Positions 15,517 to 32,667 of a stretch of 64,000 bases of DNA are shown one piece after another. The stretch's first letter is position 1, and each line of letters opens with the position of its first letter. Source of the DNA: an uncultured Microbacterium sp. (GTDB lineage Bacteria; Actinomycetota; Actinomycetes; Actinomycetales; Microbacteriaceae). A program made the position numbers and the translations under genes. Location of the stretch: NCBI GenBank assembly GCA_913774845.1, contig CAJYJO010000033.1, positions 1 to 64,000 of the forward strand, read 5' to 3'. The notes under the pieces were generated by a model. The model saw only the letters and a program-made list of their open reading frames with translations. It was not told the origin of the DNA and did no database searches.

Positions 15517-18500
15517 TCAGTGCGTCGACGGCGCGAAGGCCAGCTGCGCGGCGACGAGACCGTGCTCGCGGCTGACGATCTGCGCGCGCCCGGGGGCGGC
15601 CCGCTCGGGCTTGACGCGTCCGATGAGCGCCCCCTCCTCGGGGTTCCCGCCCAGGAGGATGCCCGTGACACCGAGGTCGGTGAAGCGCTGGATGATCGGG
15701 TCGTACGCGGCACGGCTGGCGCCGCCCGATCGACGCGTGAGGATGACGTGCAGACCCAGATCGCCGGCCTGGGCGAGCAACGGCTGCAGGACCGCGAGCG
15801 GATTCCCCTGACTCGTGGCGACGAGGTCGTAGTCGTCGACCAGGATGAAGCCCTCGGCGCCCGTCCACCAGCTTCGCTCGCGCAGCTGCGTCGGGGTGAC
15901 GTCCGGACCCGGGATGCGGGTGGAGAAGTACTGCGCGAGGTCGTTCATCCCGCCGGTGGCGAGGTCGTGCGAGGTGAGGTACGCGCCGAGGTAGTCGTCG
16001 GGGATCTCACCGAGCAGGGCACGACGGTAGTCGACGACGAAGATCTTGGCCTCCGCCGGGGTGTACAGCCGCTGGATCTCCCGTGCCACGCCCCGCAGGA
16101 ACGACGACTTGCCCATCCCCGAGTCGCCGTAGACGAAGAGGTGCGGCTCCACCCGGGGGTCGACGCCGAACGGCGACAGCTGGGCCTCCTCGAGGCCGAG
16201 CAGCAACCGGGTCTCCGCGGGCTCGGTGAGCGCGCGCACCTCGTCGAGCGAGATGTTCTCGGGCAGCAGCCGCAGCTTCGGGCCGGGCTTCCCGCGCCAC
16301 GCGGCACTGACCCGCCCGATCATGTCGGTCACGCCGTCGGCGATCGTCGTCGGGTCGTCGGAGCCGTCGATGCGCGGAACCGAGGTGAGCATCTGAAGCG
16401 TGGCGGGACTCAGACCGCGACCGGGCTGACCGACGGGCACGTTGGCCGCCTGCTTGCGGTCGACGTCGGAGTCGGTGGGATCACCCAGTCGCAGCTCGAG
16501 ACGCGTCTGGATGAGGTCCTTGAGGTTCGCGCGGATCTCGAGCCACCGATTCGCCGTGACGACCACGTGCACGCCGAAGCTGAGACCGCGGGCGGCGATC
16601 GTCTGCACGCGCGCCTCGAGCGGCTCGAACTCCGCGCGCAGGGTCGACCACCCGTCGATGACGAGGAAGACGTCGCCGAACCCGTCGTCGAGGCGTCCCT
16701 CGCGGCGGCGGGAACGGTACGTGTCGATCGAGTCGACGGCGTTGCGGCGGAAGTACTGCTCGCGCGCGTCGAGCACTGCTTCGACCTCGGCGATGGTCCG
16801 GCGCACCGCCTCCGGCTCGGTGCGCGTGGCGACGCCCGAGACGTGCGGGTGCCGCTGCATCGCCGTGAACCCGCCGCCGCCGAAGTCGAGCACGAAGAAC
16901 TGCAGCTCCAGCGGCGTGCCGGTGAGCGCGAGCGCGGAGACGAGCGTGCGGGCCAGCGTGGACTTGCCGCTCAACGGCGACCCGACGATCGCGACGTGAC
17001 CGGCCGCACCGCCGAGCGAGACCGTGAGGTTGTCGCGGCGCTGCTCGAGGGGGATGTCGACGATGCCGACCGGCACCGTGAGGGCGCCGGCGTCGCGCCA
17101 GCGCCGCGAGACGAGACCGAGCTCCGGGTCCTCCGCCAGGTCGGGCATCAGCTCGTCGAGCGGCGTCGGCTCGGCCAGGGGCGGCAGCCACACCTGGTGC
17201 GCCTCCGGCCCGCGATCCTTCATCCGATCGACAGCGATCTGGAACGTCGACCGCTTCTCGGCGACGGGGGCCGCGGTCTCGGACGCCGCGGCATCCTGAT
17301 CGTCCGCCGGGTCGTCGTCGGGCTGGGCGGCGGCGGTGAACACCTCGACGCGGGCGGGTCCGGATGCCGCGGCGTCGATCGCGTCGACCGCGAGACCGGC
17401 CGTGCCGCGGGGGCGCCCCGAGACGTAGGCCGCGCGGAACTGCACGAGGTTCTCGGTGTCGCTCTTGAGGAAGCCCACGCCCGGTTCCTGCGGGAGGGTG
17501 TACGCGTCGGCGGTGCCGATGATCGTGCGCGACTCGGCGGCCGAGAAGGTGCGCAGACCGATCCGGTACGAGAGGTAGGTGTCGAGCCCGCGGAGCTTGC
17601 CCTCCTCGAGGCGCTGCGAGGCGAGCAGGAGGTGCACGTGCAGGGAGCGGCCGACGCGACCGATGTTGAGGAAGCTGTCGACGAACTCGGGCTTCGCCGT
17701 GAGCAGCTCGGAGAACTCGTCGACGACGATGAGCAGCGCCGGAAGCGGTGCGAGGTCGGTGCGGCCCCCGCGGCGCGCGGCCTCGTACTCGCCGACGTTG
17801 GCGAAGTTGCCTGAGGCGCGCAGCAGCTCCTGGCGGCGCACGACCTCGCCCTGCAGCGCGTCCTGGAAGCGGTCGACGAGCGCGAGCTCGGCGCCGAGGT
17901 TGGTGATCACGGCCGAGACATGAGGCATCTCGGCCATGCCGGCGAAGGTCGCGCCGCCCTTGAAGTCGACGAGCACGAAGTTCAGCTGCTCGGGCGAGTG
18001 GGTCATGGCGAGGGCGAGGACGAGGGTGCGCAGCACCTCGGACTTGCCGGAACCGGTGGCCCCGACCATCACACCGTGCGGGCCCATGCCCTGCGACGCG
18101 GACTCCTTCAGGTCGAGCACGAGAGGGGCGCCCGACGGCTCCTGGCCGATCGGAACCCGCAGACGGTCGCGCTCGAGTCGCGGCGTCCACGCCCGGTCGA
18201 AGTCGACCGCCCGCACGTCCGGCAGCCCCAGCAGCTCGGTCAGTTCCGCCTGCCCCTGCGTCGTCGGCGCGTCCACGACCACCATGGGTGCGGGGCGCAA
18301 CGGCATCAGGCGCCGCGCCGTCGCCTCTGCCTCGGCGATGCTCATGGCATCCGGGACGAAGGCCTCAGCGCGACCGGCGCCGTCGATGAACTCGGCGGAG
18401 GCGGGGACGACGGGGGCGTCCGACCGGCGGGAGCGGGCCGGGACGACGGGGGCGTCGGCCAGAGCGATGCGGGCCGTGGTCGGGTCGTCGAGCTCGGCCC

Positions 18501-19521
18501 AGCGGCTCGGCAGGTCGACGACGGTGACGCCCTGCGCACCCTCGAGTCCCGCGAGCGGGCTGTTCGAGGGGGTCTCGACGCCGTCGACCACGATCACGAT
18601 GTGCGGGGTGATCCCGCCGCCGGGAGCGAAGCGCGGGCGCGAGGTGACCTGCTCGGGGAGCATGTCGACCAGCTCGTCGAGGGATGCCGAGATCATGCGG
18701 GCGGGACCCAGCTTGTCCTGCACGCGCGACGACATCGCGTGGGGGAGCCATTTGATCCAGTCCCACGCCGCGAGCTGCGCCGGGCCCGCGAGGACCGCGA
18801 TCAGGACGTCCTCGGGGTCGTGCAGCGTCGCCGCGGACGCGACCACCGCTCGGGCGAGACTGCGCACCGCCTCGTCGTCGGAACCGACGACCTCGACGCG
18901 CGCGTAGTCGGCGAGCGGGAACCCCAGCGGCAGGTCGCGCTGCACTTCATGGGTGAGCATGAAGCGGTGCGCGGCCGAGGCGGCGACGGGGTCGAGCTGG
19001 GCGAGCGGCGGCAGCTCGGGCGCTTCGAGGGAGAGGCTGAGCGGCTGGTCGGTCACCCCGACGCGCGCGAGCAGGAAGGTCTCGTCCCCCGGCTGCCGCT
19101 CCCACACCCGCGAGCGCTCCTCGGCGATGAAGGGCAGAGCGGCCGGCGCCGGCATGATCCACCCGCCGTGGCGGCGCTGCTTGCGTGCCGCGACCCGCAC
19201 GGTGTCGCGCAGGTCGGCCAGGTAGGCGAGGTACTCGCGGCGGTTGCCGAGGACCTGGGCGTTGCGCTGCGCGCGCTGGCGCCATCCGTTGACCGCGACG
19301 AAGCCCAGCGACGACAGCAGGAACATGCCGCCGATGAGGAAGCCCGTCGGTCCGCTGTTCGAGATGGTCACCATGACGATGGCGCCCACGCTGCCGAGCA
19401 TCGGCAGCAGAGAGGTCAGGATGCCGCTCCCGCCCTCGTTCGGCACGAGCTCGGGCGGCGGCTGGACGACGATGCGGCCGTTCGGAAGCGACGGCGGGGC
19501 GATGCGCGGACCGGTGCTCAC
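15517..19521 (-). CDS. eccC: Type VII secretion FtsK/SpoIIIE ATPase EccC
   Basis: This 1334-residue protein is the motor of the type VII system. The short N-terminal region is followed by two hydrophobic segments (about residues 36-80) that anchor it in the membrane. Three P-loop domains follow: GATGSGKSE near residue 487, GSPLSGKST near 850 and YGDSGMGKSS near 1136. The first domain also carries LNFVLVDFKGGATF and LLIVVDEFSELL (Walker B). Mycobacterial ESX-1 splits this protein in two; here it is a single chain. It should recognise the C-terminal YxxxD/E signal of Esx partners and energise export. The start overlaps the RDD-FHA stop by 4 nt (ATGA), so the three minus-strand genes are translationally coupled. 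Confidence 0.95.
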   Translation of the reverse strand: MSTGPRIAPPSLPNGRIVVQPPPELVPNEGGSGILTSLLPMLGSVGAIVMVTISNSGPTGFLIGGMFLLSSLGFVAVNGWRQRAQRNAQVLGNRREYLAYLADLRDTVRVAARKQRRHGGWIMPAPAALPFIAEERSRVWERQPGDETFLLARVGVTDQPLSLSLEAPELPPLAQLDPVAASAAHRFMLTHEVQRDLPLGFPLADYARVEVVGSDDEAVRSLARAVVASAATLHDPEDVLIAVLAGPAQLAAWDWIKWLPHAMSSRVQDKLGPARMISASLDELVDMLPEQVTSRPRFAPGGGITPHIVIVVDGVETPSNSPLAGLEGAQGVTVVDLPSRWAELDDPTTARIALADAPVVPARSRRSDAPVVPASAEFIDGAGRAEAFVPDAMSIAEAEATARRLMPLRPAPMVVVDAPTTQGQAELTELLGLPDVRAVDFDRAWTPRLERDRLRVPIGQEPSGAPLVLDLKESASQGMGPHGVMVGATGSGKSEVLRTLVLALAMTHSPEQLNFVLVDFKGGATFAGMAEMPHVSAVITNLGAELALVDRFQDALQGEVVRRQELLRASGNFANVGEYEAARRGGRTDLAPLPALLIVVDEFSELLTAKPEFVDSFLNIGRVGRSLHVHLLLASQRLEEGKLRGLDTYLSYRIGLRTFSAAESRTIIGTADAYTLPQEPGVGFLKSDTENLVQFRAAYVSGRPRGTAGLAVDAIDAAASGPARVEVFTAAAQPDDDPADDQDAAASETAAPVAEKRSTFQIAVDRMKDRGPEAHQVWLPPLAEPTPLDELMPDLAEDPELGLVSRRWRDAGALTVPVGIVDIPLEQRRDNLTVSLGGAAGHVAIVGSPLSGKSTLARTLVSALALTGTPLELQFFVLDFGGGGFTAMQRHPHVSGVATRTEPEAVRRTIAEVEAVLDAREQYFRRNAVDSIDTYRSRRREGRLDDGFGDVFLVIDGWSTLRAEFEPLEARVQTIAARGLSFGVHVVVTANRWLEIRANLKDLIQTRLELRLGDPTDSDVDRKQAANVPVGQPGRGLSPATLQMLTSVPRIDGSDDPTTIADGVTDMIGRVSAAWRGKPGPKLRLLPENISLDEVRALTEPAETRLLLGLEEAQLSPFGVDPRVEPHLFVYGDSGMGKSSFLRGVAREIQRLYTPAEAKIFVVDYRRALLGEIPDDYLGAYLTSHDLATGGMNDLAQYFSTRIPGPDVTPTQLRERSWWTGAEGFILVDDYDLVATSQGNPLAVLQPLLAQAGDLGLHVILTRRSGGASRAAYDPIIQRFTDLGVTGILLGGNPEEGALIGRVKPERAAPGRAQIVSREHGLVAAQLAFAPSTH

Positions 19522-20516
19522 GCGGGACCTCCGATGAGACGACTGAGGGTGAAGACGCGCTCGCCCAGGCGCACGCGCGTGCCGTCTTCGAGAAGAGTGC
19601 GGGCTCCGGGACGCAGCGGGTGGACGGTGCCGTCGTCGTCGATGAGCTCGGACCCGTTCGTGGATCCCGCGTCGGTGACCCAGATGACGTCGCCGTCGTG
19701 CTCCAGACGCAGGTGCGTCTTGGAGATGAGGCGGTCCGGATCATCCACGGCGATCAACACGTCGCCGGGCTGCTCGGCCACGGGCGCACGGCCGAAGTTC
19801 ACCGCGGCCGGCAGCTCGAACTGCGCGCGTTGGCCGGTGTCGAACGTGACGAGCAGCTGGTCGCGCCCCGCCGCGGGCGCGGCGATCGCGACGGGCGCCG
19901 CCGTCTCGGGGACGGCGGATGCCGCGCGCTCACCGGCGAGGACCGGTGCGGCGAGCGCGACGAGCGGCGCGTCCCAGGCGGGGGCGGCCGGAAGGGAGGG
20001 GGCGGCGTCGATCCGCAGCGGGTCCCGGGTCGCAGCGGAACGCGCGTGCACCGTCGGTTCGGCCAGATCGCGGGCCTCCGCGGCATCCGCGTCCCTCCGC
20101 CCGCGCGGGACGGAGAGCAGGACGGTACCGGCGGCGCGATCGGCCCAGGAACGTTGACGGCCCGAGCGGTCGAAAGCGGCGGAGGCGACGACGACCCAGG
20201 CACCGACGACGAGCACGAGCCCGCCCAGCACCACCAGGGTGCCGCGGACGAACGCGCGTCCCGCACCCGGAACGACCGGCGACTCGGCACGCGCGGCGCG
20301 CAGACCGAACAGCAGCGCCCCCGGGGTGAGTCCCCGTCGCGCCTGCAGGATCCAGAGCCCCAGGAGGGCCTCCAAGGCGACCGCGATCCCGAGGACGGGA
20401 GAGCCGAGAAGGGATGCCACGCCCGCGGCGATCACGACCAGGGCCGCGTCGACGCTGAAGGCGCCCACGCGCGTCCCGACCGGCGCGGGCGCGCCGGGGG
20501 GCGGCGACTGCGTCAT
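19518..20516 (-). CDS. RDD-family membrane protein with C-terminal FHA domain
   Basis: This 332-residue protein has an N-terminal RDD-like membrane part of about 140 residues (VGAFSVDAALVVIAAGVASLL, GLTPGALLFGLR, VRGTLVVLGGLVLVVG), a variable Ala/Pro-rich linker, then a forkhead-associated domain. FHA hallmarks are FGRAP, RLISKTHLRL and DAGSTNGSEL. FHA domains bind phosphothreonine peptides, so this is a membrane-anchored phospho-reader in the type VII operon. The likely role is to couple Ser/Thr kinase signalling to secretion; the phosphorylated partner is unknown. Its ATG overlaps the upstream eccD-like stop (ATGA), and its stop overlaps the eccC start. Confidence 0.88.
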   Translation of the reverse strand: MTQSPPPGAPAPVGTRVGAFSVDAALVVIAAGVASLLGSPVLGIAVALEALLGLWILQARRGLTPGALLFGLRAARAESPVVPGAGRAFVRGTLVVLGGLVLVVGAWVVVASAAFDRSGRQRSWADRAAGTVLLSVPRGRRDADAAEARDLAEPTVHARSAATRDPLRIDAAPSLPAAPAWDAPLVALAAPVLAGERAASAVPETAAPVAIAAPAAGRDQLLVTFDTGQRAQFELPAAVNFGRAPVAEQPGDVLIAVDDPDRLISKTHLRLEHDGDVIWVTDAGSTNGSELIDDDGTVHPLRPGARTLLEDGTRVRLGERVFTLSRLIGGPA

Positions 20517-21859
20517 GTCGCCATCATCGCACGCGCGATCTCGATCGCCCCGGCCGCGAGCATGCCGGCCGGAAGCGACAGAGCAGTCGCGAGCGCCTCG
20601 AAGACGTCGCCCGTCCGCGACCATCCCAGCGACCGCAGACCCCGGCCCACGGGGACGACGAGAAGGGCCGCGCCGAGGCCGACCAGCAGCAGGATGCCGG
20701 CGATCCCGACGAGCAGTTCGGGCGAGAACGCGGGGAGGAGGGCCCCCAGCACGGCGGCGAGGACGATCACCGCGCCCGCGCGGGCCACCCACCGCAGGGA
20801 GGGCACGGTGCTGCGCCGCGAACCGAGCAGGAGCGCCAGGACCACGGTGACCGCGAGGGCGATGCGTCCGCCGAGGACGACCGGTTCACCCGCGGGGAAC
20901 GACGGCAGGGCCGCGAAGGCGCTCGCCGCGCCGGCGGCGACGAGCAGCAGCGTGCCGATCGACAACCGCGCCGTGGACCGTTGGACGAGGGCGTCGGCGT
21001 CGTCGGCCTCGATTGTGCGGACCTCGTCGGGGAGGTTCTGCCGCACCGTCCATCGGGTGCTCTGGAAGCGGCCGTAGTCGATGAAGGTGCCGGGGGCCAC
21101 GTCGACCAGGCTCGCCTGGAGGATTCGCTGGGCGACCGGAACCAGACCGAGCGTCACGGCCGCCGGCGCCGACACGTCGAGGTGCAGCAGCAGCGCCGCC
21201 CCCCACACCGCGGCGAGCATCGCCAGGACGATGGCCGCGGTGCGGCTCTGCGCGCACAGGGAGTCGGTGGAGCCGAGTACGCCGAGCACCCCGGCGACGA
21301 TCGCGGCGCTCAGCACTCCGGTGAAGACGGCGACGAGGTCGGCGGAGGCGGGCAGGTCGGGGACCACGGCGACGCCGCCGCCGAACGCGAGGGCGATGAC
21401 TCCGACAACGGGTGCGAGCGTTGCCGTGCGCGCGCGGGCACGGAGTCCGAAGACCGCCGCAGCGAGCAGCGCCGCGACGAGGGCGAGCACCCCCACGGGC
21501 GCGCGGACCTGCTCCGGGAGGGCGTCGGCGCTCTGCAGCCTCAGAAGGGCCAGGATGCCGCCCCCCGCCGCCAGGACCCACCACGCCGCCGCGAGCCGCG
21601 CCGCCCGAGCCTCGGTCGCGCGCACCGTCGCGCCGGGAAGCGATGCCGTCGGGTCGACGAGCACGAGCACCGCACCGTCGTCGAGACCGGTCATCGGCGT
21701 GGAGCGGAGGATCTCGCGCCCCGAGATACCCACGACGCGCGTATGGCGCGTCGGCGCCGAGCCCGCCGCGCGCAGCACGTCGTCAACACGCGCCTGCAGG
21801 GGAACGACCAGGTCGAAGCGCGAATCGCCATCGATGAGGGCGACACGGCGCCCGTGCAT
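20513..21859 (-). CDS. EccD-like type VII membrane protein (second EccD)
   Basis: This 448-residue protein has an N-terminal ubiquitin/YukD-like segment of about 70 residues (RRVALIDGDSRFDLVVPLQ, then GREIL and DDGAVLVLVD), followed by eleven or so hydrophobic segments to the C-terminus. A cytosolic loop of about 60 residues splits them (SLVDVAPGTFIDYGRF...RQNLPDEVRTIEADDADALVQRSTARL). This is the EccD layout, but sequence similarity to the EccD at 26780 is low by eye. The start is uncertain: ATG at 21859 follows AGAGGTG closely, while TTG at 21874 follows GAGGGGG with better spacing. It is first in the minus-strand operon, with the palindrome at 21978-22001 upstream. Confidence 0.8.
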   Translation of the reverse strand: MHGRRVALIDGDSRFDLVVPLQARVDDVLRAAGSAPTRHTRVVGISGREILRSTPMTGLDDGAVLVLVDPTASLPGATVRATEARAARLAAAWWVLAAGGGILALLRLQSADALPEQVRAPVGVLALVAALLAAAVFGLRARARTATLAPVVGVIALAFGGGVAVVPDLPASADLVAVFTGVLSAAIVAGVLGVLGSTDSLCAQSRTAAIVLAMLAAVWGAALLLHLDVSAPAAVTLGLVPVAQRILQASLVDVAPGTFIDYGRFQSTRWTVRQNLPDEVRTIEADDADALVQRSTARLSIGTLLLVAAGAASAFAALPSFPAGEPVVLGGRIALAVTVVLALLLGSRRSTVPSLRWVARAGAVIVLAAVLGALLPAFSPELLVGIAGILLLVGLGAALLVVPVGRGLRSLGWSRTGDVFEALATALSLPAGMLAAGAIEIARAMMAT

Positions 21860-21977
21860 CACCTCTGCGCTCAACGGTCCCCCTCGCTCTCGCGCCACGA
21901 CGGCCCGCGGGCCGGCGACCGCACCAGCGTATCCGGCCGGCACCGGGCCGTTCGTCTTTCGATCCGCCACCGGGGAT

Positions 21978-22001
21978 AAAGATGAGAGAATTGTCATCTT
22001 T
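21978..22001. promoter_or_regulatory. Palindrome in the divergent type VII promoter region
   Basis: AAAGATGA (21978-21985) and TCATCTTT (21994-22001) form a perfect 8-bp inverted repeat separated by 8 nt (GAGAATTG). It lies in an AT-rich patch of the 292-nt gap between the eccD-like start and the first esx gene. Size and position suit an operator bound by a dimeric regulator, or a promoter core serving both directions. No regulator gene sits next to it. Confidence 0.6.
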
Positions 22002-22166
22002 GAATATGGGTCCCGGGGTTGTCGATCCGGGTCGCCATTACGTAGGTTCGAAGTCCGGTGGGGGGCTCCGGCTCCTCCACCGATGCCGCCGACGGACCTC
22101 CGTCCCGGGCGGACATCCGATTCCCCTATGCCCGGGCGCGCCCGGAGGAACAACGAGGAGACAGTC

Positions 22167-22478
22167 GTGGCAGATCTCATCGCAGCCCAGGAGGGTGCGC
22201 TTCGTCGCGGTGCCGAGGCGGTCAACACCGCCAAGGGCGGCATCGACGAGCAGGTCCGGAAGGTCCGTTCCGAGCTCGACCAGGTGGCCGGCTTCTGGAC
22301 CGGTGCGGCGGCCGGTTCGTACACACAGCTCATGCAGCGGTGGAATGAAGAGACCACCAAGCTCAACAACGTGCTCGTCACGCTCGAAGACGCGCTGCGC
22401 GGCACCGAGCGCGACCAGGCCGCCTCGGAAGAGTCGCACCAGCAGACCATCGGCAACCTGGGCTCGCTGCTCGGCTGA
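22167..22478 (+). CDS. WXG100-family type VII secreted protein (EsxA-like, pair 1)
   Basis: This 103-residue helical hairpin protein has the central turn motif W-T-G in VAGFWTGAAAGSY. The GTG at 22167 is chosen for GAGGAG 6 nt upstream and because the length then matches the family. There is no signal peptide, as expected for a type VII substrate. It clearly resembles the protein at 26080-26397: both have EGAL-RG near the start, RDQAA in the second helix and GSLLG or DSLLGG at the end. It should form a heterodimer with the next gene's product, secreted through the EccB/C/D machine. It opens the plus-strand half of the locus. Confidence 0.92.
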   Translation: MADLIAAQEGALRRGAEAVNTAKGGIDEQVRKVRSELDQVAGFWTGAAAGSYTQLMQRWNEETTKLNNVLVTLEDALRGTERDQAASEESHQQTIGNLGSLLG

Positions 22479-22507: not shown

Positions 22508-22795
22508 ATGCAGTCCATGTCCGTTCGTCCCGAGCAGGTCATCGCCCTCTCCGGTCAGATCCGCAACGGCGCCGCCGGCATCCGCACCCGTCTCGACGAG
22601 CTCGAGTCGCAGGTCAACGCCCTGCGCGCCTCCTGGGACGGTGAGGCGCAGACCGCCTACGACCAGGCCCAGGCCCAGTGGACCCAGTCCATCACCCGCC
22701 TCAACGAACTGCTCCAGCAGATCGCGGGCAAGACCGACGAGATCGCCCAGGGTTACACCTCGACCGACAAGTCCGCCGCCGGCCGCTTCGTCTGA
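22508..22795 (+). CDS. WXG100-family type VII secreted protein (EsxB-like, pair 1)
   Basis: This 95-residue protein has the helix-turn-helix WXG100 form with W-D-G in LRASWDGEAQTAY, and ends in QGYTSTDKSAAGRF. The Y-x-x-x-D element YTSTD is the C-terminal type VII export signal of EsxB-type partners, recognised by EccC. AGAAGGA lies 6-8 nt before the ATG. It lies 29 nt downstream of its partner, so the pair is one transcript. It is paralogous to 26399-26686, which has the same YxTTD ending. It probably supplies the secretion signal for the dimer. Confidence 0.93.
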   Translation: MQSMSVRPEQVIALSGQIRNGAAGIRTRLDELESQVNALRASWDGEAQTAYDQAQAQWTQSITRLNELLQQIAGKTDEIAQGYTSTDKSAAGRFV

Positions 22796-22900: not shown

Positions 22901-23302
22901 GTGAATCTGATGAACGGTCAGGTCGGTTACGACGGCGACCAGGTGCAGCACAACGTCGTGCTGTTGACCGAGGTTCCCGAGGAGATTCCGGCCGCCGACA
23001 TCATCCGGCAGGTCGACGGCAACTCCGCCGAGGACACCTCCGCCGAGTTCACCCGCCACCTCGAGCAGCGAGCGAGAGAATTGGCGGCGGAGATCGAGAA
23101 TCTCCGCGGGTGGGTGCTTCTCAACGCCCAGAACCTCGCCCAGGCGGTGGCCGCCCTGCAGGAACGCGACATGATCAACGCCACCGACGCGCAGCAGGCG
23201 CTGTCGGTCATCGACTCGGCGTCGCAGCCGGCCCCGTCGGGGGGTTCCTCGCCGGCAGGCGCAGACGGTACGAAAGCATTCCTCTCGGGGCTTCCCCGAT
23301 GA
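22901..23302 (+). CDS. Unidentified type VII locus protein, 133 aa
   Basis: I do not recognise this family. The protein is acidic and mostly helical, with a polar N-terminus (NGQVGYDGDQVQHN), a possible coiled coil around residues 45-95 (EFTRHLEQRARELAAEIENL...NAQNLAQAVAALQERD), and a Ser/Pro/Gly-rich C-terminus. It has no signal peptide or membrane segment. The single LRGW echoes a WXG-like turn, but the spacing is wrong for WXG100. GTG at 22901 or ATG at 22910 could start it; neither has a strong ribosome site. The stop overlaps the mycosin 1 start by 4 nt, so it is tightly coupled. A substrate or chaperone of this locus is possible. Confidence 0.75.
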   Translation: MNLMNGQVGYDGDQVQHNVVLLTEVPEEIPAADIIRQVDGNSAEDTSAEFTRHLEQRARELAAEIENLRGWVLLNAQNLAQAVAALQERDMINATDAQQALSVIDSASQPAPSGGSSPAGADGTKAFLSGLPR

Positions 23303-24588: not shown

Positions 24589-25997
24589 CCGGGCCCAACG
24601 AACAGCGCCTCATCGACTTCGCCGACACGGGAAGCGCCTGGGACATGCCGGGGAACCTCCCGCTCGTCACCGGGCTGCAGTCGTTGAAGCAGGTTCTGCA
24701 GAAGGTCGCCGAGAACCCCGGTGTGATGGGACAGACCGGGACTGCGGCGAGCACCCTCTTCGGCGCGACCGCCGTCGAGGTGCAGGAGCAGATCACCTGG
24801 GTCCAGGTCAACGCGGCGATCGTGATCTCCCAGGCGAACTCCGTTCGCGAGCGCGCACGCGAATCCCTGGCCAACCTGCCGCAGGGGTCGATGACCGAGG
24901 GACAAGCAGCGGCCGTCCGAGGGGCGACCGTCGGGGCGACGCTCGTCCTCGGACCCGTCGCTTTCCTCGCGGGCGAGGGAGCCGCTGCCGCGATCAATGG
25001 ATACCTTTCGAACCAGCGTGAAGAGGCCGCCGCGCGGGCGATGTCGGCGCACGCCGCCGAAATGGACAAGATCACGCTCGAGGCTCCGCCGGAGTTCCAG
25101 GTCGATCGCTCCAAGCAGCCCGTCTCCGGCGACCCCACGACCGACGGCACGACGTGGAACGGCGGCGGTGGCGGTGGCAGCGGCCGCTCCGGCACGCCCA
25201 CGTTCCAGCCCGCTCCCGTCGGTGGACCGTCGGGATACACACCCGGTGGGGGCGGCGGTGACTTCGTCGGTAGCGATCCCTCGGGCGGTGACGAAGGCCG
25301 CAGCGACTACGGCCCGTTCCACATCGACGTCCCGCAGGCCAACCTCGGACCGCGGCCTCCCATCGATCTCGGCTCTATCCCGCCGACCCCGACGCCGGAC
25401 GGCCCGCTCAACGGCTCTCCCACGCTGCCCGGGGTCATCCCGGCGGCTCCGGGATCGGGCGGCCTGAGCGGTGGCGCCGGTGCCGGCCTGGGATCCGGCC
25501 TCACCGCCGGCCTGGTCGCCGGCGGCGGCGGAGCCGCGGCCCTGGCCAATCTCGCCCGCGGTGCGGGCACTCCGGGCGGCAGCCTCTTCGGCGGCGGCAC
25601 CGCGACCTCCGGCACCGCGGCCCGCTCCGGCGGCCTGCTCGGCAAGACCGCGCCCGGCGGATCCGGTCTCGGTGCGCGCGGCGTCGGCGGAGTGGCCGGC
25701 GGCGGCACGGCCGGGGGTAGCACCAGCGGCTCCTCGGCAGCTCGCGGCGCAGGCATGCGAGCGGGCGGCCTGGCCGGCGCAGGCGGCACGGGCGGGACCG
25801 GTGCGGCCGGCGGCGCCACGGGTGCGGCCGGCGGTGGCAGCCGGGGCGTCGGTGGTATGGGCGGGCCGGGCTCGCGCTCGGATCGCCGCAACGAAGCGGC
25901 CCGTGGCCTGGGCGGCCCCATCGCCCCGCGCATGGAGGACGACGAAGAGATCGGCCCCCGCTCCGAGAACGCGCAGGCCGGCGGACGAGACGACTGA
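24585..25997 (+). CDS. Gly-rich putative type VII substrate, 470 aa
   Basis: No family is recognised. Residues 1-170 look helical, with a hydrophobic stretch (about 105-140, GATVGATLVLGPVAFLAGEG) resembling a hairpin or a membrane-active segment. Residues 180-290 are Gly/Pro/Ser-rich. Residues 300-430 are a low-complexity Gly/Ala region with repeated GG-AGG runs and many RSGG/AARG steps. The C-terminus is charged (MEDDEEIGPRSE). This two-part plan (helical head, Gly-rich tail) recalls PE/PPE and EspB-type substrates, but no PE, PPE or WXG motif is visible. The start overlaps the mycosin 1 stop (ATGA). It lies directly ahead of esx pair 2, which supports export by this system. Confidence 0.8.
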   Translation: MTGPNEQRLIDFADTGSAWDMPGNLPLVTGLQSLKQVLQKVAENPGVMGQTGTAASTLFGATAVEVQEQITWVQVNAAIVISQANSVRERARESLANLPQGSMTEGQAAAVRGATVGATLVLGPVAFLAGEGAAAAINGYLSNQREEAAARAMSAHAAEMDKITLEAPPEFQVDRSKQPVSGDPTTDGTTWNGGGGGGSGRSGTPTFQPAPVGGPSGYTPGGGGGDFVGSDPSGGDEGRSDYGPFHIDVPQANLGPRPPIDLGSIPPTPTPDGPLNGSPTLPGVIPAAPGSGGLSGGAGAGLGSGLTAGLVAGGGGAAALANLARGAGTPGGSLFGGGTATSGTAARSGGLLGKTAPGGSGLGARGVGGVAGGGTAGGSTSGSSAARGAGMRAGGLAGAGGTGGTGAAGGATGAAGGGSRGVGGMGGPGSRSDRRNEAARGLGGPIAPRMEDDEEIGPRSENAQAGGRDD

Positions 25998-26079: not shown

Positions 26080-26397
26080 ATGACCGACCGCATCTCCGCG
26101 GAAGAGGGAGCCCTCGCCCGAGGCTCCCAGGCGGTGAACGGCGCGCACGCCGACATCGCCGACAGCACGCGACGCGTGCTCGCCGAACTCGACGAGCTGC
26201 AGGGTCGATGGGTGGGCGAAGCGGCGACCTCCTACGGTGTTCTCGTCAACGAGTGGACGGCGGGCGCGAACCGGCTGAACGACGTGCTGCTCACCCTGAG
26301 CGCCGCGCTCCAGGCCACCGCGCGCGACCAGGCCGCCGTCGAAGACGCCCACCGCACGACGATCAGCGGGCTGGACAGCCTGCTGGGAGGACAGTGA
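26080..26397 (+). CDS. WXG100-family type VII secreted protein (EsxA-like, pair 2)
   Basis: This 105-residue protein has the WXG100 turn W-V-G in LQGRWVGEAATSY and the EEGALARG start and LDSLLGG end it shares with the pair 1 protein at 22167. CGGAGGA lies about 7 nt before the ATG. It has no signal peptide. Its stop is 1 nt before the next esx ATG, so the pair should be made in equal amounts. The two pairs are clearly paralogous by eye, with conserved positions around RDQAA and N-RLNDVL/KLNNVL, so a local duplication is likely. Confidence 0.92.
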   Translation: MTDRISAEEGALARGSQAVNGAHADIADSTRRVLAELDELQGRWVGEAATSYGVLVNEWTAGANRLNDVLLTLSAALQATARDQAAVEDAHRTTISGLDSLLGGQ

Positions 26398-26398
26398 G

Positions 26399-26686
26399 AT
26401 GGAAGACCTTCGCGTCACCCCCGAATCGCTCCACGCCGCGGCCGCGCGCCTGCGTTCCGAGAGCGCGCGTATCGACGCCGCCCTCGGCAGCCTCGACGCC
26501 GAGGTCACCCGCCTGCGCGGGCAGTGGGAAGGCGCCGCGCAGTCGGCGTACGACACCGCCCAGCGCCAGTGGACGACCACGCTCGAGCACATGCGCGACG
26601 TCCTCCGTCGCATCGCGAACGCGACCGACGGCATCGCCGACGACTACGTGACCACCGACCGGGCGTCCGCGACGCGATTCCGCTGA
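26399..26686 (+). CDS. WXG100-family type VII secreted protein (EsxB-like, pair 2)
   Basis: This 95-residue protein has W-E-G in LRGQWEGAAQSAY and ends in DDYVTTDRASATRF. YVTTD is the YxxxD export signal, matching YTSTD of pair 1. It starts 1 nt after the previous stop codon (TGAGATG). Similarity to 22508-22795 runs through both helices (TA-QRQWT versus QAQAQWT). It should be the EccC-recognised partner in the second heterodimer. Next comes a 93-nt gap before eccD that holds a TAGTAT-like -10 element near 26727. Confidence 0.92.
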   Translation: MEDLRVTPESLHAAAARLRSESARIDAALGSLDAEVTRLRGQWEGAAQSAYDTAQRQWTTTLEHMRDVLRRIANATDGIADDYVTTDRASATRFR

Positions 26687-26779: not shown

Positions 26780-28114
26780 GTGGCTGACGTCATAAACGCG
26801 ACGCGTGCGTTGCTGCGCTTGTCGGTGCAGAGCGAGGGGCGCCGTCTCGATATCGCCATTCCGGCTCAGGTGCCCGTCATCGAGTTCCTCCCCGGCTTCG
26901 CGCGCTCACTGGGCGTGCTCGACCCGTCGATGACGTCGTCGGGATACGCCCTCCACCGCGCCGACGGGACCGTCGTCGACGTCGCTCGCGGGGCCTCCGC
27001 CCAGGGCATCATCGACGGCGAGGTGCTCACGCTCGTCCGCGGCGGGCTCGTCGCCCAGCCCCGGGTCTACGACGACATCGTCGAAGCCGTCATCGACGCC
27101 ACCGCCCAGCAGAACCGCCCGTGGACCACGCGCGACAACGCGCGCACCGCTCTCGCCGTCAGCCTCGCCCTCCTGGGCGTGTGCGCGATCCTCCTCCTCG
27201 CCGCCGGACGCGCGCTCCCCTTCGGCGCGCTCGTCGCCGGCGGCGGCGCGATCGTGCTCCTCGTCGTCTCGTCCGTCGTCTCCCGGCTCGGCCAGGGCGA
27301 GGCGGGCCAAGGCCTCGGGATGGCGGCATCCGTCTTCGCTGCCGTTGCCGGTTACCTGGCCGTCCCGACGGCCTTCGAGCTGTGGGGCTGGCCGATGGCC
27401 GCCGCCGGCGGCGCGGCCTTCGTCATCGCGGGCGTCGCGCTGGCCCTGTCGCGCGACCGCGCCGAGGTGCAGCTCGCCCCGCTGATCGCGGGCGGCGCGA
27501 TCGGCGTGACCGGCACGATGGCCGCCTTCTTCCCGCCGGCGATGATCTGGACGCTCATGGTCGGTGTCGTCGCCACGCTCGGCGGCGCCCTGCCCTGGCT
27601 CGCGCTGGGCACGACCCGGTTGCGCGTCGTCTCGCCGCAGAGCGACGCCGAGATGTTCGCCGACCCCGAGCCGATCGACGCCGACGACGTCGCCGCTCGC
27701 GTCGCGCAGGGCAAACGCATCCTCATCGCGCTGCGCCTCGCCCTCGCCGCGGTCGTCCTCGTCGCCACCCCACTGGTCGCGGCGCAGAACGCCACCGGTG
27801 CGCTCGTCTGCTCCCTCGCGTTCGCCGGCATGATGTTCCCCTCGCGCCAGACCTTCGCGCGCTCGGGCGTGCTCACGGTGATGGCCACCGGCATCCTGGG
27901 TCTGGTGGTCGCGGGAGTCGCGGCGTCGCTCGCGCAGCCGGGACTGCGGGTCGGCATCCTCATCGTGCTCGCCGTGGCGACGGTGAGCGTCGTCACCGTC
28001 ACGCTGCTGGCGCCCAAGACCCGCCTCCGGCTCATCCGCCTCGCCGACACCGCCGAGCTGCTGGTGCTGGCGTCGCTGCTCCCCCTGGCGGTCATCTCGT
28101 CCGGACTGGCCTGA
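26780..28114 (+). CDS. eccD: Type VII secretion integral membrane protein EccD
   Basis: This 444-residue protein has an N-terminal ubiquitin-like (YukD) domain of about 95 residues (LLRLSVQSEGRRLDIAIPAQVPVIEFLP...DGEVLTLV), then about eleven TM segments from residue 120 to the end. In ESX structures EccD dimerises and forms the membrane raft around EccB and EccC. The start is GTG at 26780 after GAGAGGGGG. It opens a tight run with eccB (1-nt gap) and mycP. A second, divergent EccD-like protein is encoded at 20513-21859, and no EccE is seen. Confidence 0.93.
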   Translation: MADVINATRALLRLSVQSEGRRLDIAIPAQVPVIEFLPGFARSLGVLDPSMTSSGYALHRADGTVVDVARGASAQGIIDGEVLTLVRGGLVAQPRVYDDIVEAVIDATAQQNRPWTTRDNARTALAVSLALLGVCAILLLAAGRALPFGALVAGGGAIVLLVVSSVVSRLGQGEAGQGLGMAASVFAAVAGYLAVPTAFELWGWPMAAAGGAAFVIAGVALALSRDRAEVQLAPLIAGGAIGVTGTMAAFFPPAMIWTLMVGVVATLGGALPWLALGTTRLRVVSPQSDAEMFADPEPIDADDVAARVAQGKRILIALRLALAAVVLVATPLVAAQNATGALVCSLAFAGMMFPSRQTFARSGVLTVMATGILGLVVAGVAASLAQPGLRVGILIVLAVATVSVVTVTLLAPKTRLRLIRLADTAELLVLASLLPLAVISSGLA

Positions 28115-28115: not shown

Positions 28116-29444
28116 ATGGCCACCAAGGGCGACCTGATCGAGGCGCAGAACTTCTCGCGCCGTCGTCTGCTCACGGCTTTCGTCAGCGGCGCCCCGGGCG
28201 GCAAGGAACTGCAGCCGAGCTCGCCGCTGCGCGCCGTCATCGCGGCGATCGCCCTGACGGTGCTCGTGGTGCTCGTCGGCGTCTTCTACGGGCTCATCCG
28301 TCCGGGCCTGCCCACGGGTTGGGAGAACGGCAAGCTGGTGCTCGTCTCCGACACGGGGGCCCGCTTCGTCACCGTCGAGGGGGTGCTGCATCCCGTCATC
28401 AACACCGCGAGCGCCCGCCTCCTCCTCCCGGCCAATCAGTACGGCGTCATCTCCACCGATCAGGCCACCCTGGCCGGGACACCGGTGGGCGACACGCTCG
28501 GCATCACCGGGGCACCCGACGAGCTGCCCCCGACATCGGGACTCCTCAACACGGGCTGGAGCGCGTGCGTCTCCGGCGACGTCGGCGTCGACGTTCGCCT
28601 GTCGACGGCGAGCGGCCCCACCCCCGCGACCGATCGCGCCGTGGTGGTGTCGGTCGACGGCATCCTGCACGTGGTCCAGGGCGGCCGCAGCTTCGCCGTG
28701 TCGAGCACCGAAGCCGACGCCGTGCTGCGCGCGGCCGGCATCTCGTCGCTCAATCCGATCCCGGTGCCCGCCTCGTGGCTCGACCTCTTCACGGCGGGGA
28801 CCGCGCTCACCCCCATCACGTTGCAGAACTACGGCGAGGCCGTCCCGGGCACCTCGCTGCGCGCCGGACAGGTGGTCAGGCAGGCGGGCGCCCCCGAAGA
28901 CGAGCGGTTCCTCGTGCAGACCGGCGGCGTGCTCGAGTCGCTCTCTCCCCTGGCCTGGCAGCTGTATCAGCTCGGCAGCGGCAGCGCCCTCGGGGGCCAG
29001 GTCACCGAGGTCACCGCCGACGAGATCCGCAGCCTCCCCACCGCGACGCAGGGGCTCGGCGACGAGTGGCCCGACACCGGCTTCGAGACCGTCGCCGCAG
29101 GTCAACGCCCGTGCGCGGTGCTCACCACGGGCGACAGCGGGGCCGAGACGGCGCTCGCGACCCAGCCGACCTCGACCGCCGTCACCGCCGGCGTCCGCGT
29201 CGACCCCAGCCACGGTGCGCTCGTGCGCTCCGGAGGGCGTGGTGACCAGAACGCGAGCATCCTCACGCTCGTGGATGCCACCGGCACCGCCTTCCCGCTC
29301 CCGGGAGCGACCGACGAGACCATCGCGCGCCTCGGCTACACGTCCGATCAGATCGGCGCCATCGCCGACGGCTGGACGGCGCTGCTGCCCACCGGTCCGT
29401 CGCTGAGCGAGGACGCCGCGCAGCGCACGCCGGAGGCGAAGTGA
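28116..29444 (+). CDS. eccB: Type VII secretion protein EccB
   Basis: This 442-residue protein has a short cytosolic start (MATKGDLIEAQNFSRRRLLTAFVSG), one TM segment (about residues 40-62), and a large extracytoplasmic domain. The conserved EccB N-terminal motif with -Q-FSRRR- just ahead of the helix is clear, and the outer domain has repeated beta-rich R repeats around a core with the pair TGWSACVSG and GQRPCAVLT. The two Cys residues would form the conserved periplasmic disulfide. Its stop overlaps the mycP GTG (GTGA). EccB is the only copy in the locus and probably forms the outer hub of the complex. Confidence 0.94.
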   Translation: MATKGDLIEAQNFSRRRLLTAFVSGAPGGKELQPSSPLRAVIAAIALTVLVVLVGVFYGLIRPGLPTGWENGKLVLVSDTGARFVTVEGVLHPVINTASARLLLPANQYGVISTDQATLAGTPVGDTLGITGAPDELPPTSGLLNTGWSACVSGDVGVDVRLSTASGPTPATDRAVVVSVDGILHVVQGGRSFAVSSTEADAVLRAAGISSLNPIPVPASWLDLFTAGTALTPITLQNYGEAVPGTSLRAGQVVRQAGAPEDERFLVQTGGVLESLSPLAWQLYQLGSGSALGGQVTEVTADEIRSLPTATQGLGDEWPDTGFETVAAGQRPCAVLTTGDSGAETALATQPTSTAVTAGVRVDPSHGALVRSGGRGDQNASILTLVDATGTAFPLPGATDETIARLGYTSDQIGAIADGWTALLPTGPSLSEDAAQRTPEAK

Positions 29445-30760
29445 CCCGTAGCGGCCCTCGGCGACGCGCGCTCGCGGCGGCGCTCGGGCTCGGCATCCTG
29501 TTCAGCGTGGCATCCTCCCCCGCTCATGCCGCGGCCCCGGTCCTGGCCGCCACCACCGACACCCAGTGCACGGCGACCACGCGCGTGCCGCAGGCGCCCC
29601 CCGCGCTCGATCGCCTGCAGAGCACGTCCGCGTGGGCGCTCACGCGCGGCGAAGGGGTGACCGTCGCCGTCGTCGACTCGGGTGTGGCGACGAACCCGCA
29701 CCTCGACGCGGTGGTCGTCCCGGGCGTCAACCTCGTCCCCGACGGCACCGACGCCTCCGGCCGCACCGACCAGCTCGGACACGGCACCGTCATCGCCGGC
29801 CAGATCGCGGCACAGGTCATCTCGGGTTCCGGGGTGCAGGGGCTCGCGCCGGCGGCGAAGATCCTCCCCGTGCGCGTCTACGCGGGCGATTCGAAGGAGC
29901 TCGTCGACGCCGGTTTCGGTCCGAATACGCAGCGGATGGCCGAGGGTATCCGTGCCGCCGCCGACCGCGGCGCCCAGATCATCAACGTCTCGATGAGCAC
30001 GACCGAGCGCAACGCCGCTCTCGCCGACGCCGTCGCGTACGCCACCGGACGCGGCAGCCTCGTCGTCGGCAGCGCGGGAAACCGCAGCTCCGTGGCCGCG
30101 GTCGAGACCGACGAGACCGACGGTGCACGGTACCCGGCCGGTTTCGCCGACGCGATCGGGGTGACCGCCACCGACCTCAGCGGGTCGGTCACCGAGGCCA
30201 GCATCTTCGGACCCCACGTGACCCTGGCCGCGCCCGGTCAGGAGATCGCGTCGGCCTGGCCCCTCGGCGGCGACTGCGTGGTGGCGGCGAGCGAACCCGC
30301 GACCAGCTGGGCCGCCGCGTACGCGTCGGCGGCGGCGGCTCTCGTCGCCTCCGCCCATCCGGACGAGACCCCCGCGCAGTGGGCCTACCGTCTCGAGGCG
30401 ACCGCGGTGCGCCCGCAGCCGGACGAGCGTTCCAACGTGTCGGGCTGGGGCGTCGTGCAGCCCTACGACGCGCTCGTGCTCGTCCCGGGCTCGGGTCTGC
30501 GCGGGCCCGCGAGTCCCTTCACGTCGGCTTCGCCCTCCCCCTCCCCCACGGCGACATCCGCGGCGGTGTCGATCGTCGTCGGTCCCGGACCGGATGCCGC
30601 CGCCCTCACGACCGCGACCGGCATCGGTCTTGCAGGACTCGTCGCGCTCGGAGCGATCGGCGCGCTCGCGGTCTTCGTCAGCCGACGCCGCGACGAGAGC
30701 GCCCCGCGCCGCCCCGCGCCGACCGGGCGCGGCCTGTATCGGGACGAGACCGCCGAGTAG
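29441..30760 (+). CDS. mycP: Type VII secretion-associated serine protease mycosin 2
   Basis: This 439-residue mycosin has a signal peptide (about residues 1-30, ending AHA), triad D79 (AVVDSG), H114 (LGHGT) and S289 (ATSWAAAY), oxyanion Asn in SAGN, then a Ser/Pro/Thr-rich stalk, one TM segment (about residues 390-412) and a basic tail. The nucleophile motif reads ATSWAAA where subtilases usually have GTS-AAP; the Pro is missing. N-terminal Cys43 may bond to the prodomain-like extension, as in mycobacterial mycosins. It is the last gene of the plus-strand run, followed at once by a hairpin terminator. Confidence 0.93.
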   Translation: MTRSGPRRRALAAALGLGILFSVASSPAHAAAPVLAATTDTQCTATTRVPQAPPALDRLQSTSAWALTRGEGVTVAVVDSGVATNPHLDAVVVPGVNLVPDGTDASGRTDQLGHGTVIAGQIAAQVISGSGVQGLAPAAKILPVRVYAGDSKELVDAGFGPNTQRMAEGIRAAADRGAQIINVSMSTTERNAALADAVAYATGRGSLVVGSAGNRSSVAAVETDETDGARYPAGFADAIGVTATDLSGSVTEASIFGPHVTLAAPGQEIASAWPLGGDCVVAASEPATSWAAAYASAAAALVASAHPDETPAQWAYRLEATAVRPQPDERSNVSGWGVVQPYDALVLVPGSGLRGPASPFTSASPSPSPTATSAAVSIVVGPGPDAAALTTATGIGLAGLVALGAIGALAVFVSRRRDESAPRRPAPTGRGLYRDETAE

Positions 30761-30761
30761 A

Positions 30762-30825: not shown

Positions 30826-31236
30826 GGCGCGGGACGGGAAGGGAGGAGAAACCGGCACCGGAGGACCCAGACCCGCGCAACCGCCCTCCCCCCGCCGACT
30901 CCCCTCCCGCGATCCAGCCCCGGGCGCAAGCCCCGGGCGCAGCCCCCACCGCCGGCACCCCACCCCGGACGCGCGGCGCGCGCCGGGAACGGAGGAGAAA
31001 CCGGCACCGGAGGACCCAAACCCGCGCAACCACCCTCCCCCCGCCGATTCCCCTCCCGCGGCGATCCAGTCCCGGGCGGAGACCCCGACCGCAGCCCCCA
31101 CCGCCGGTACCCCACCCGGGACGCGCGGCGCGCGGGACGGGAAGGGAGGAGAAACCGGCACCGGAGGACCCAAACCCTCGGAACCACCCTCCCCCCGCCG
31201 ATTCCCCTCCCGCGGGGGGGATTCAGCCCCGGGGTC
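30826..31236. repeat. Three tandem copies of a ~150-bp repeat between mycP and the FHA gene
   Basis: A unit containing GGAGGAGAAACCGGCACCGG followed by a run of C-rich tracts (CCCTCCCCCCGCCGA, CCCCTCCCGC) occurs three times. The shared GAGAAACC element begins at 30846, 30995 and 31149, giving periods of 149 and 154 nt. Copies differ by scattered substitutions and short indels, and the last runs up to the stop codon of the convergent FHA gene. I see no convincing gene in this 476-nt stretch: the three copies are not in one frame. Strong C-run/G-run strand asymmetry is notable. Confidence 0.8.
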
Positions 31237-32667
31237 CTACGCGGACGGACCGGCGGGACGCAGCTCGAGGTGCGCGTCGCCGAGGCGGAAGCGGACCGGC
31301 ACGGGCGCCGTGCCACCCGCGCCGATGCGCTCTGCGCGGCCGTCGTCGAGCACGAGGGTCACGCCGTTGGTGGAGTCGAGGTCGGTCACGGTCCAGCCGG
31401 TCACCGTCCAGTCGAGACGCGCGTGCTGCTTCGACACCGTACGCGTGGAGTCGACCACCGCGATCGCCTGGACGGATTCATCGGATGCCGCGGGCTTGCG
31501 GCCCAGCACGACGGTGCGGCTGGTCAGCGGCACCTGACGACCGTCGGGCAGGCCGAGCGTCCACTCTCCGCGGCGTCGCGAACGCGGACGCAGCTGCGTC
31601 TGCTCGTCGACCGGCGCCGCGGCAGCATCCGCCGCATCCGTGGACGGCGCGTCCGTGACATCCGTGGTCTCCTCGACCCGTTCGAAGGTCGGGGTTGCCG
31701 TGATCGCGGAGGGCGGGTCGGCGGGAGCGGATGCCGAGACCCCGGCCGCGGACTCGGATCCGGGGGCACGGGCGATGGTCGCGTCGGGTGCGGCGGGATC
31801 CGCGGCCTCGAGCGCGCCAGCACGGGCGGGGCCCGCTGTGGCGTCGGACGGGACCTCGGAGCCGGACGTGGCCGGAGTCGATGCGACGGGGGCCGGAGCA
31901 GACGCGGCCGCGGAAGCCGGCGCCGGGGCATCAGCGACCGCAGAACCAGGAGCGGGCTCGGGAGACGCCGAGGCCGGAGCAGACGCGGCCGCGAGGGACG
32001 GCGCGGAGTCAGACGCGGCCGCCGGCGCCGGCGAACCCGCGGCCGACACACCGGGGGCAGACGCGGAGGGCGGCACGTCGTCGGCGGCGCGCGCGGAGCG
32101 GCGCAGGGAGGTGTGCTCGAGCTCGGGCGCGATCTCGACGGGGCCGGGGAGGGTGGGGATGACCGCCGGGGCCTCCGGTTCCGGGGCGGCGGAACGCGAC
32201 CCGGCTGCCGCGGCGGCGACACCCGGCACCGCGGCGATCGGTCCGGCGGGTTCGGCCGACACCGGGGCCTCGACGGGCGACGGGGCGGTCGGCTCGGGGG
32301 AGGCGGCATCCCTCGCCTTCCCCCCGGAGGCGAGCAGCGTCGACCAGACCGGCGGGAAGAGCACCGCGAGCGCCGTCGTCCCGGCACCCCGGCCGGACGC
32401 GGTGCCGATCCGGTGGGCGGCGCGGGCCTTGAGCACGAGCGCGTAGACGTTGACGAACGGCACGAGCAGCAGCACGGCGCGGACGGGATCGATGCGTCCG
32501 AGGCGGAAGATCTCGGCGTCGTTCACCACCGGCACCCACGCCCGCCACGTCTCGACGCCGCGCGCGTCGAACACCCGCGCGAGACCGATGGCGTACCAGA
32601 TGTGCAGCGCCACGGCCGGCACGAGGAGCGCCCCCGCGATCGCGGCGATCAGGCTCAGAACCAGCAT
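31237..32667 (-). CDS. Membrane protein with C-terminal FHA domain (type VII locus)
   Basis: This 476-residue protein has three hydrophobic segments in its first 110 residues (LVLSLIAAIAGALLVPAVAL; ...PVRAVLLLVPFVNVYALVL; ...GTTALAVLFPPVWSTLL), resembling a DUF5684-type signal-peptidase-associated membrane region. A 240-residue Ala/Pro/Ser-rich linker follows, and then an FHA domain with LGRKP, RTVSKQHARLD and DLDSTNGVTLV. DEQTQLRPR just before the FHA region is a candidate phosphothreonine site for self-binding. It is convergent with mycP and separated by the 150-bp repeats. A role in phospho-regulation of secretion is inferred from position. The linker varies strongly in composition, as expected of a disordered tether. 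Confidence 0.82.
   Translation of the reverse strand: MLVLSLIAAIAGALLVPAVALHIWYAIGLARVFDARGVETWRAWVPVVNDAEIFRLGRIDPVRAVLLLVPFVNVYALVLKARAAHRIGTASGRGAGTTALAVLFPPVWSTLLASGGKARDAASPEPTAPSPVEAPVSAEPAGPIAAVPGVAAAAAGSRSAAPEPEAPAVIPTLPGPVEIAPELEHTSLRRSARAADDVPPSASAPGVSAAGSPAPAAASDSAPSLAAASAPASASPEPAPGSAVADAPAPASAAASAPAPVASTPATSGSEVPSDATAGPARAGALEAADPAAPDATIARAPGSESAAGVSASAPADPPSAITATPTFERVEETTDVTDAPSTDAADAAAAPVDEQTQLRPRSRRRGEWTLGLPDGRQVPLTSRTVVLGRKPAASDESVQAIAVVDSTRTVSKQHARLDWTVTGWTVTDLDSTNGVTLVLDDGRAERIGAGGTAPVPVRFRLGDAHLELRPAGPSA

Follow-up and report, generated by a model that had tools for sequence, protein, structure and literature searches.

A type VII secretion locus in Microbacterium with two EccD genes and no detected EccE

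The locus considered in this study lies in a stretch of 64,000 nucleotides (the window) from an uncultured Microbacterium sp. (contig CAJYJO010000033.1), whose genome amounts to 3.37 Mb. Positions 15517 to 32667 encode a type VII secretion system (T7SS) with one EccB, one EccC and two EccD-like proteins, EccD1 and EccD2, together with two WXG100 pairs, two mycosins and two FHA proteins. The gene architecture and its conservation are well supported. I will argue that the machine is, by a modest margin of probability, a T7SSa system without EccE built on two specialised EccD paralogues, EccD1 taking a bent, inner seat and EccD2 an extended, outer one.

Comparison with described systems

The mycobacterial systems ESX-1, ESX-2, ESX-3 and ESX-5 (T7SSa) have in common with this locus EccB, EccC, a mycosin, WXG100 pairs carrying the YxxxD motif, and an EccD with a ubiquitin-like domain and 11 transmembrane (TM) segments. 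As given in the available passages of the structural papers, EccB, EccC, EccD, EccE and MycP of ESX-5 stand in the ratio 6:6:12:6:3 (PMC8131196), and both ESX-3 and ESX-5 use one EccD gene twice per protomer, with EccE in addition (PMC6986878, PMC8131196). Each ESX-3 protomer is described as containing two EccD3 conformers, whose linker touches EccB3 and EccC3 if bent and EccE3 if extended (PMC6986878); the mycobacterial protomer accordingly holds an inner, bent copy with its linker at EccB and EccC and an outer, extended copy of the same EccD with its linker at EccE (PMC6986878, PMC11370616). In contrast, the present locus has two EccD genes, no detected EccE, no EccA over the cut-off, an RDD-FHA protein coupled to EccD2, and mycosin cassettes.

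The ESX-4 systems of non-mycobacterial actinomycetes share EccB, EccC, EccD, MycP and two WXG proteins with the locus and often lack EccE (passages of PMC4791881 and PMC10906988). Those of PMC4791881 name EccD among the components and report rearrangements outside the Mycolata, with no mention of a second EccD. An ESX-4-like locus would have the core without EccE or EccA and a single EccD; here EccE is absent, but there are two EccD genes. The systems T7SSc to T7SSj (Garrett 2024, seen in part) likewise carry FHA and phosphatase components beside their cores, which are EssC-like, and the abstract places T7SSd in Actinomycetota; words beginning with Microbacter, Cellulomonas or RDD are absent from the main text. 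The parts of Garrett 2024 and of Newton-Foot 2016 at hand do not mention a two-EccD arrangement, nor was one found in the titles, abstracts and passages of the open-access literature (subscription papers lay mostly outside the search). The two-EccD locus is therefore a form of T7SSa apparently undescribed in the literature searched.

The core genes are as follows, those on the minus strand overlapping by 4 bases at each junction:

15517..19521, minus strand: EccC, 1334 aa, EccCa and EccCb in a single chain (TIGR03924, 874 bits, and TIGR03925, 831 bits, both far above cut-off)
19518..20516, minus strand: RDD-FHA protein, 332 aa (Pfam RDD 28.7 bits, FHA 31.8 bits), starting at 20516 and overlapping the end of eccD2 by 4 bases
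20513..21862, minus strand: EccD2, divergent EccD paralogue as judged by profile comparison, 449 aa, 11 hydropathy peaks, linker without hinge motif
26780..28114, plus strand: EccD1, 444 aa (TIGR03920 100.8 bits, cut-off 94.95; Pfam YukD and EccD over cut-off), with a ubiquitin-like YukD domain, the hinge YDDIVEAV and an 11-TM domain
28116..29444, plus strand: EccB (TIGR03919 175.4 bits, cut-off 154)
29441..30760, plus strand: MycB, EccB-linked mycosin (TIGR03921 238 bits, cut-off 279), grouping with canonical MycP

The locus is of the T7SSa (ESX) type: EccC, EccB, EccD, a mycosin and a WXG100 pair with YxxxD are each present. EccD is recognised through the TIGR03920 cut-off in EccD1, and in EccD2 through profile comparison and the tree only; both mycosins match TIGR03921 below its curated cut-off, and MycB clusters with canonical mycosins. 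The original prediction, made from the letters of the window, had paired WXG100, mycosin, EccD-like and FHA genes around single EccB and EccC genes, and profile matches bear out every one of these, with refined boundaries. Its statement that EccE and EccA are missing also stands. A profile search of the whole genome gave no match to EccE, although that search had no positive control, and no EccA over the cut-off, only 7 weak AAA matches; both results set the locus apart from ESX-1, -2, -3 and -5. Neither EccE nor a normal ESX locus turned up elsewhere in the genome, where one EccB and one EccD (by TIGR03920) exceed their cut-offs.

Identity, age and distribution of EccD2

EccD2 has no NCBIfam match, and its match to Pfam EccD is below threshold (E 0.033). 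Compared as profiles, however, EccD2 and EccD1 align end to end over 403 columns (hhalign probability 98.5, E 3.8e-15). The hydropathy plot of EccD2 shows 11 peaks in a 6+5 layout, as does that of EccD1, which has one further peak in the N-terminal domain. These sequence comparisons make EccD2 a genuine paralogue of EccD. That its gene was called in error is ruled out: a caller based on codon usage gives 20513–21859, and the protein is conserved in relatives. Searches against solved structures gave no match for either protein as a single sequence and chance-level matches only for the EccD2 profile; the EccD1 profile weakly matched a ubiquitin-like protein (E 0.052) and the EccD1 cytosolic domain (E 0.091).

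To describe relatives I will use L for loci or stretches and G for genomes, and "named loci" for those reached through EccD1: a search of the genome collection with EccD1 found 139 related stretches, of which the best 80 were used. They come from Microbacterium, Leifsonia, Schumannella, Demequina, Agromyces, Mycetocola, Klugiella, Leucobacter, Cellulomonas, Sanguibacter, Actinotalea, Phycicoccus and other genera; the eleven closest, mostly of the Microbacterium testaceum group, have EccD1 proteins 87–91 percent identical to that of the window. M. testaceum itself carries the same locus (L099). EccD2 lies within the same stretch in 52 of the 80 and elsewhere in the genome for 26 of the other 28 (in two cases as short pieces only), which brings the total to 78; among those 28 genomes it was not found in those of L134 and L149. 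Within the family, a single-sequence search of 299 genomes found EccB in 25 and EccD2 in 20 of these. The EccD2 profile added three of the remaining five (G147, G191, G266) and found no match in the last two (G018, G052). EccD2 was also found beyond the family, in 7 genomes that belong to four other families, two of them lying outside the order.

A tree of 118 EccD sequences was built from 25 of the 80 named loci together with family and other genomes, leaving aside EccD matches shorter than 380 residues, the frame-broken EccD2 of G285 and three second-domain duplicates. All 55 EccD1 sequences form one clade (support 0.989) and all 50 EccD2 sequences another (0.986), both separate from the other 13, which come from single-EccD loci and other families. 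Two old clades rule out a recent local duplication of EccD. The two proteins also mirror each other in their distances (Mantel r 0.924 over 47 pairs, none of 1000 permutations as high), as co-inheritance predicts for any genes inherited jointly. Copy number is equally steady: EccC, EccB, EccD1 and EccD2 occur once each in the 40 core-complete named loci, apart from one split hit each, and once each in the 17 core-complete stitched loci of the family, where only the split hits of G285 and G201 depart from this. To judge from the trees and counts, EccD1 and EccD2 are an old pair kept jointly.

EccD2 might instead be a redundant duplicate in decay. Its median pairwise distance is 1.73 times that of EccD1, and its frame is interrupted in G285 (frame break), G147 (TAG) and G712 (TGA). 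Such a duplicate would hardly persist as one old clade alongside EccD1 in 78 of the 80 named loci or their genomes, or keep 15 invariant columns across 17 diverse members, and I regard decay, already disfavoured, as very improbable.

In two places the locus itself is disrupted. In L047 (G285) EccC is divided between two open reading frames (639 and 642 aa) beside the broken EccD2 frame, reflecting either decay or sequencing error. In one genus of the family (g19; L259–L263 with L088–L092) the T7SS is split between two sites, one with EccD1-EccB-MycB-FHA2 and the other with EccC-EccD2, accompanied by a WXG100 pair in G147 and G191 and without it in G266; G018 has no EccD2 match.

Hinge motif, EccE and the seats of the two EccDs

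The two clades differ in the linker between the ubiquitin-like domain and TM1. That of EccD1 is 38–39 residues long and contains D-D-x-x-[DEN] in all 55 sequences, while that of EccD2 has a median of 30 residues (26–92) as compared to medians of 39 in EccD1 and 39 in the other EccDs. A loose form of this hinge motif is found in 55/55 EccD1, 8/13 other EccDs and 0/50 EccD2, a strict form in 52/55, 8/13 and 0/50, respectively; a very loose form matches 4 of the 50 EccD2 sequences. The corresponding residues of mycobacterial EccD3, E110–A115, are conserved, and charge swaps there abolish function, according to the passages available of PMC11370616.

EccE was sought in 49 chosen EccB-bearing genomes, to which the EccD2 profile was also applied (within the class as a whole, 157 of 393 genomes have EccB). 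The EccE model works there, exceeding its cut-off in 9 genomes and reaching E <= 0.001 in 13; strong EccD2 matches (E <= 1e-27) occur in 30, and no genome has both. The hypergeometric probability of this exclusion, 4.5e-5, ignores kinship and overstates the evidence, because the presence of EccE and of EccD2 follows large clades. Weak signals cross the line in two genomes: EccD2-bearing G043 has EccE matches of 24 and 19 bits, and EccE-bearing G333 has a 21-bit match to the EccD2 profile. A second set of 49 genomes was reached from 50 of the 80 named loci (all 28 whose stretch lacks EccD2, together with 22 others; L153 was left out), and at least five of them (L136, L144, L148, L150, L160) recur in the EccB-bearing set, as identical coordinates reveal. 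None has EccE over the cut-off, and three have matches of about 19 bits. Minimal loci such as L261, L164 and L169 contain, among their core genes, no unassigned gene that might encode EccE.

The distribution of the hinge, set beside the structures of ESX-3 and ESX-5, points to EccD1 in the bent, inner seat and EccD2 in the outer. EccD1 would always sit inside, its hinge kept for the contact facing EccB and EccC, and EccD2 would always sit outside, extended, its hinge lost; with the asymmetry encoded in the genes, EccE would no longer be needed. MycB would serve as a structural cap linked to EccB. This suggests that evolution split one flexible EccD into two specialised ones. That a widespread lineage of T7SSa has in this way replaced the EccD homodimer by an obligate EccD1:EccD2 heterodimer, rendering EccE unnecessary, I put at an even chance, and I give much the same odds to the heterodimer and the seat assignment as such. 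The original prediction had offered an asymmetric complex as one explanation of the paired genes, which suits the EccD pair (fixed paralogues, hinge in EccD1 only); the other pairs differ in kind.

If true, the arrangement would bear on how EccE-less systems work: in a reconstituted ESX-5, deletion of eccE5 lowers EccD levels and abolishes secretion (passages of PMC10597459). In mycobacteria one EccD sequence serves two conformations, so a mutation strikes both seats together, and the mutation scan of EccD3 could only argue which conformer matters (PMC11370616, in the passages available). With separate EccD genes, either seat could be mutated independently of the other, and the natural duplication would record which conformer needs which residues.

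Several observations weigh against specialised seats. Seven of the 49 EccB-bearing genomes have neither EccE nor EccD2, and the family itself has single-EccD loci without detected EccE (G052, G107, G158, G201), so the loss of EccE does not require EccD2. The exclusion of EccE and EccD2 counts few events, since presence tracks large clades. The strict motif is missing from 5 of 13 other EccDs and 3 of 55 EccD1, and it was equated with E110–A115 by pattern and place rather than by an alignment of EccD3; the equivalence of the partner arginines of EccB and EccC to R47 and R112 is only putative. EccD2 acting elsewhere may explain its loss of the motif, and the three interrupted EccD2 frames count here as well.

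One such role would lie at the periphery, where EccD2 as an additional subunit would take the place of EccE, perhaps together with RDD-FHA, while EccD1 forms the usual homodimer. That no genome combines EccE over the cut-off with a strong EccD2 would be expected, as would the missing hinge and the constant neighbour of EccD2: an FHA-family gene follows it on the same strand in 50 of the 52 named loci that hold it, and the adjacency persists where EccC sits on the other side (e.g., L164, L169). One FHA protein, RDD-FHA, is thus coupled to EccD2. Against a peripheral role, RDD-FHA was not detected next to EccD2 in L255, L258, L261 and L264, loci with neither EccE nor EccD2 exist, and EccD2 retains the full 11-TM, 6+5 layout and the EccD N-terminal domain. 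I consider this explanation unlikely, though the strongest of the rivals. With EccD1 and EccD2 in specialised seats, RDD-FHA, made together with EccD2, may occupy or control the outer face in Micrococcales.

Mycosin cassettes, WXG100 pairs and neighbouring genes

The plus strand reads esxA1-esxB1-P133-mycA-G470-esxA2-esxB2-eccD1-eccB-mycB. The remaining features are:

21863..22166, no strand: intergenic region from which the eccD2 and esxA1 transcription units diverge, one terminator-like match
22167..22478, plus strand: EsxA-like WXG100, pair 1 (WXG100 47.1 bits), C-terminal YxxxD missing
22508..22795, plus strand: EsxB-like WXG100, pair 1 (TIGR03930 81.1 bits), C-terminal YxxxD present
22901..23302, plus strand: 133-aa protein (P133 family), helical-looking, no family matched, only a few relatives with weak EspC/WXG100 matches
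23299..24588, plus strand: MycA, cassette mycosin (TIGR03921 108 bits, cut-off 279; Peptidase_S8 98 bits), Asp/His/Ser present, C-terminal hydrophobic stretch, own clade
24585..25997, plus strand: Gly-rich 470-aa protein (G470 family), probable secreted substrate, WXG100-like N-domain in relatives
26080..26397, plus strand: EsxA-like WXG100, pair 2 (WXG100 41.8 bits)
26399..26686, plus strand: EsxB-like WXG100, pair 2 (TIGR03930 78.1 bits), C-terminal YxxxD present
31237..32667, minus strand: FHA2, DUF5684 and FHA (Pfam)

The original prediction placed a divergent promoter between the two halves of the locus. The intergenic stretch 21863–22166 does separate divergent units, but a sigma-70 consensus was not found there.

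The same prediction had proposed that a single EccB/EccC channel serves two substrate-specific modules, each equipped with an EccD, a mycosin and a WXG100 pair of its own. The pairs do flank the divergent region, and both mycosins and WXG100 pairs vary from locus to locus. Of the 40 core-complete named loci, 21 have two WXG100 genes and 13 have four, which makes the second pair accessory; matches to MycA range from 0 to 4 in the 17 core-complete stitched family loci (the window's count includes an unrelated subtilase). EccD1 and EccD2 stay at one each throughout, and L119, L127, L164 and L169 have both EccDs with one WXG100 pair and one mycosin. Variation in number is confined to the cassette mycosin, its 133-aa and Gly-rich companions and the second WXG100 pair, so the two-module reading does not suit EccD or the rest of the core, and it has little probability. 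Loci that lack one member of a pair exist for the mycosins and the WXG100 pairs, and there are none for EccD among core-complete loci.

The second mycosin shares a variable cassette with the 133-aa protein and the Gly-rich one. Mycosins counted as cassette members because of their distance from EccB form a single clade of 55 (split support 1.0), and the EccB-linked ones cluster with mycosins from other systems. A recent local duplication giving rise to MycA and MycB is ruled out by this single clade, though extra cassette mycosins have indeed arisen by local duplication, as in G190, L168 and L123. Every core-complete locus keeps one EccB-linked mycosin. Seven of the 40 core-complete named loci have no MycA match, one of them (L173) with a cassette mycosin scored as MycB; L119, L127, L150, L152, L164 and L169 are without a cassette mycosin. 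In core-complete named loci the order P133-MycA-G470 occurs at 27 of 45 MycA matches, fragments and unrelated subtilases counted. The catalytic triad is complete in 52/55 MycA and 41/42 MycB sequences.

A comparable combination in ESX-1 is that of the mycosin MycP1 with EspB, a WXG/PPE-like substrate whose C-terminal part is of low complexity. Here, by contrast, mycosin and Gly-rich protein are adjacent in multiplying cassettes, and cleavage is only putative. The P133-MycA-Gly-rich cassettes, sometimes with an extra WXG100 pair, would be accessory, and MycA probably processes the co-encoded Gly-rich protein, itself a probable secreted substrate on sequence grounds; variable cassettes of this kind offer natural protease-substrate candidates. 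The proposal that the two unrecognised proteins are cargo or chaperones holds in part: both tend to travel with MycA, and in the Gly-rich family Pfam WXG100 matches the N-terminus of 10 of the 17 members, the window's member not among them. The WXG100-like N-domain rests on these single-member matches; against the EsxA-like alignment it reached just 19.8 percent by hhalign. In the P133 family, 2 of the 15 members match Pfam EspC (E 0.052 at best) and one matches WXG100 (0.018), many unrelated families being equally weak; NCBIfam matches are weak and scattered, and hhalign against the EsxB-like alignment gave 4.2 percent. YxxxD is present in 14/14 EsxB-like rows, from both pairs, and in 0/14 EsxA-like rows, the predicted heterodimer partners.

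Some mycosins have changed. Those of L089, L093, L094 and L095 (the single-EccD loci of G052, G158, G107 and G201) have lost the catalytic His and Ser, their three triad columns reading Asp, Arg and Asp/Glu, which fits a purely structural mycosin. In MycB of L261 the Ser is replaced by Ala. Broken extra copies of cassette mycosins in L030 (G158) and L042 (G090) are a sign of cassette turnover.

Both FHA domains keep the pattern GR...SxxH...NG, which denotes phosphothreonine binding. FHA2 adjoins a PP2C phosphatase in L119 and L127, the two relatives checked, and not in the window.

Two neighbours lie outside the T7SS: RecQ (13395–15431), which comes after eccC, and at 35559–39131 (minus strand) a 1190-aa subtilase with I9, PA, fn3 and Ig-like domains that is not a mycosin. 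Five further WXG100 genes lie on other contigs of the genome, and proteins with Pfam T7SS_signal in two such neighbourhoods are possible substrates. At L295:5049-7348 an orphan WXG100 gene stands by a 421-aa T7SS_signal protein, a 90-aa EspC-like protein (just under the Pfam cut-off) and a 159-aa protein of no family. At L299:5002-7883 another is followed by a YbaB-like protein and by proteins of 171 and 438 aa without Pfam match, and at L297:1977-5111 a T7SS_signal protein with an alpha/beta hydrolase domain lies near a third.

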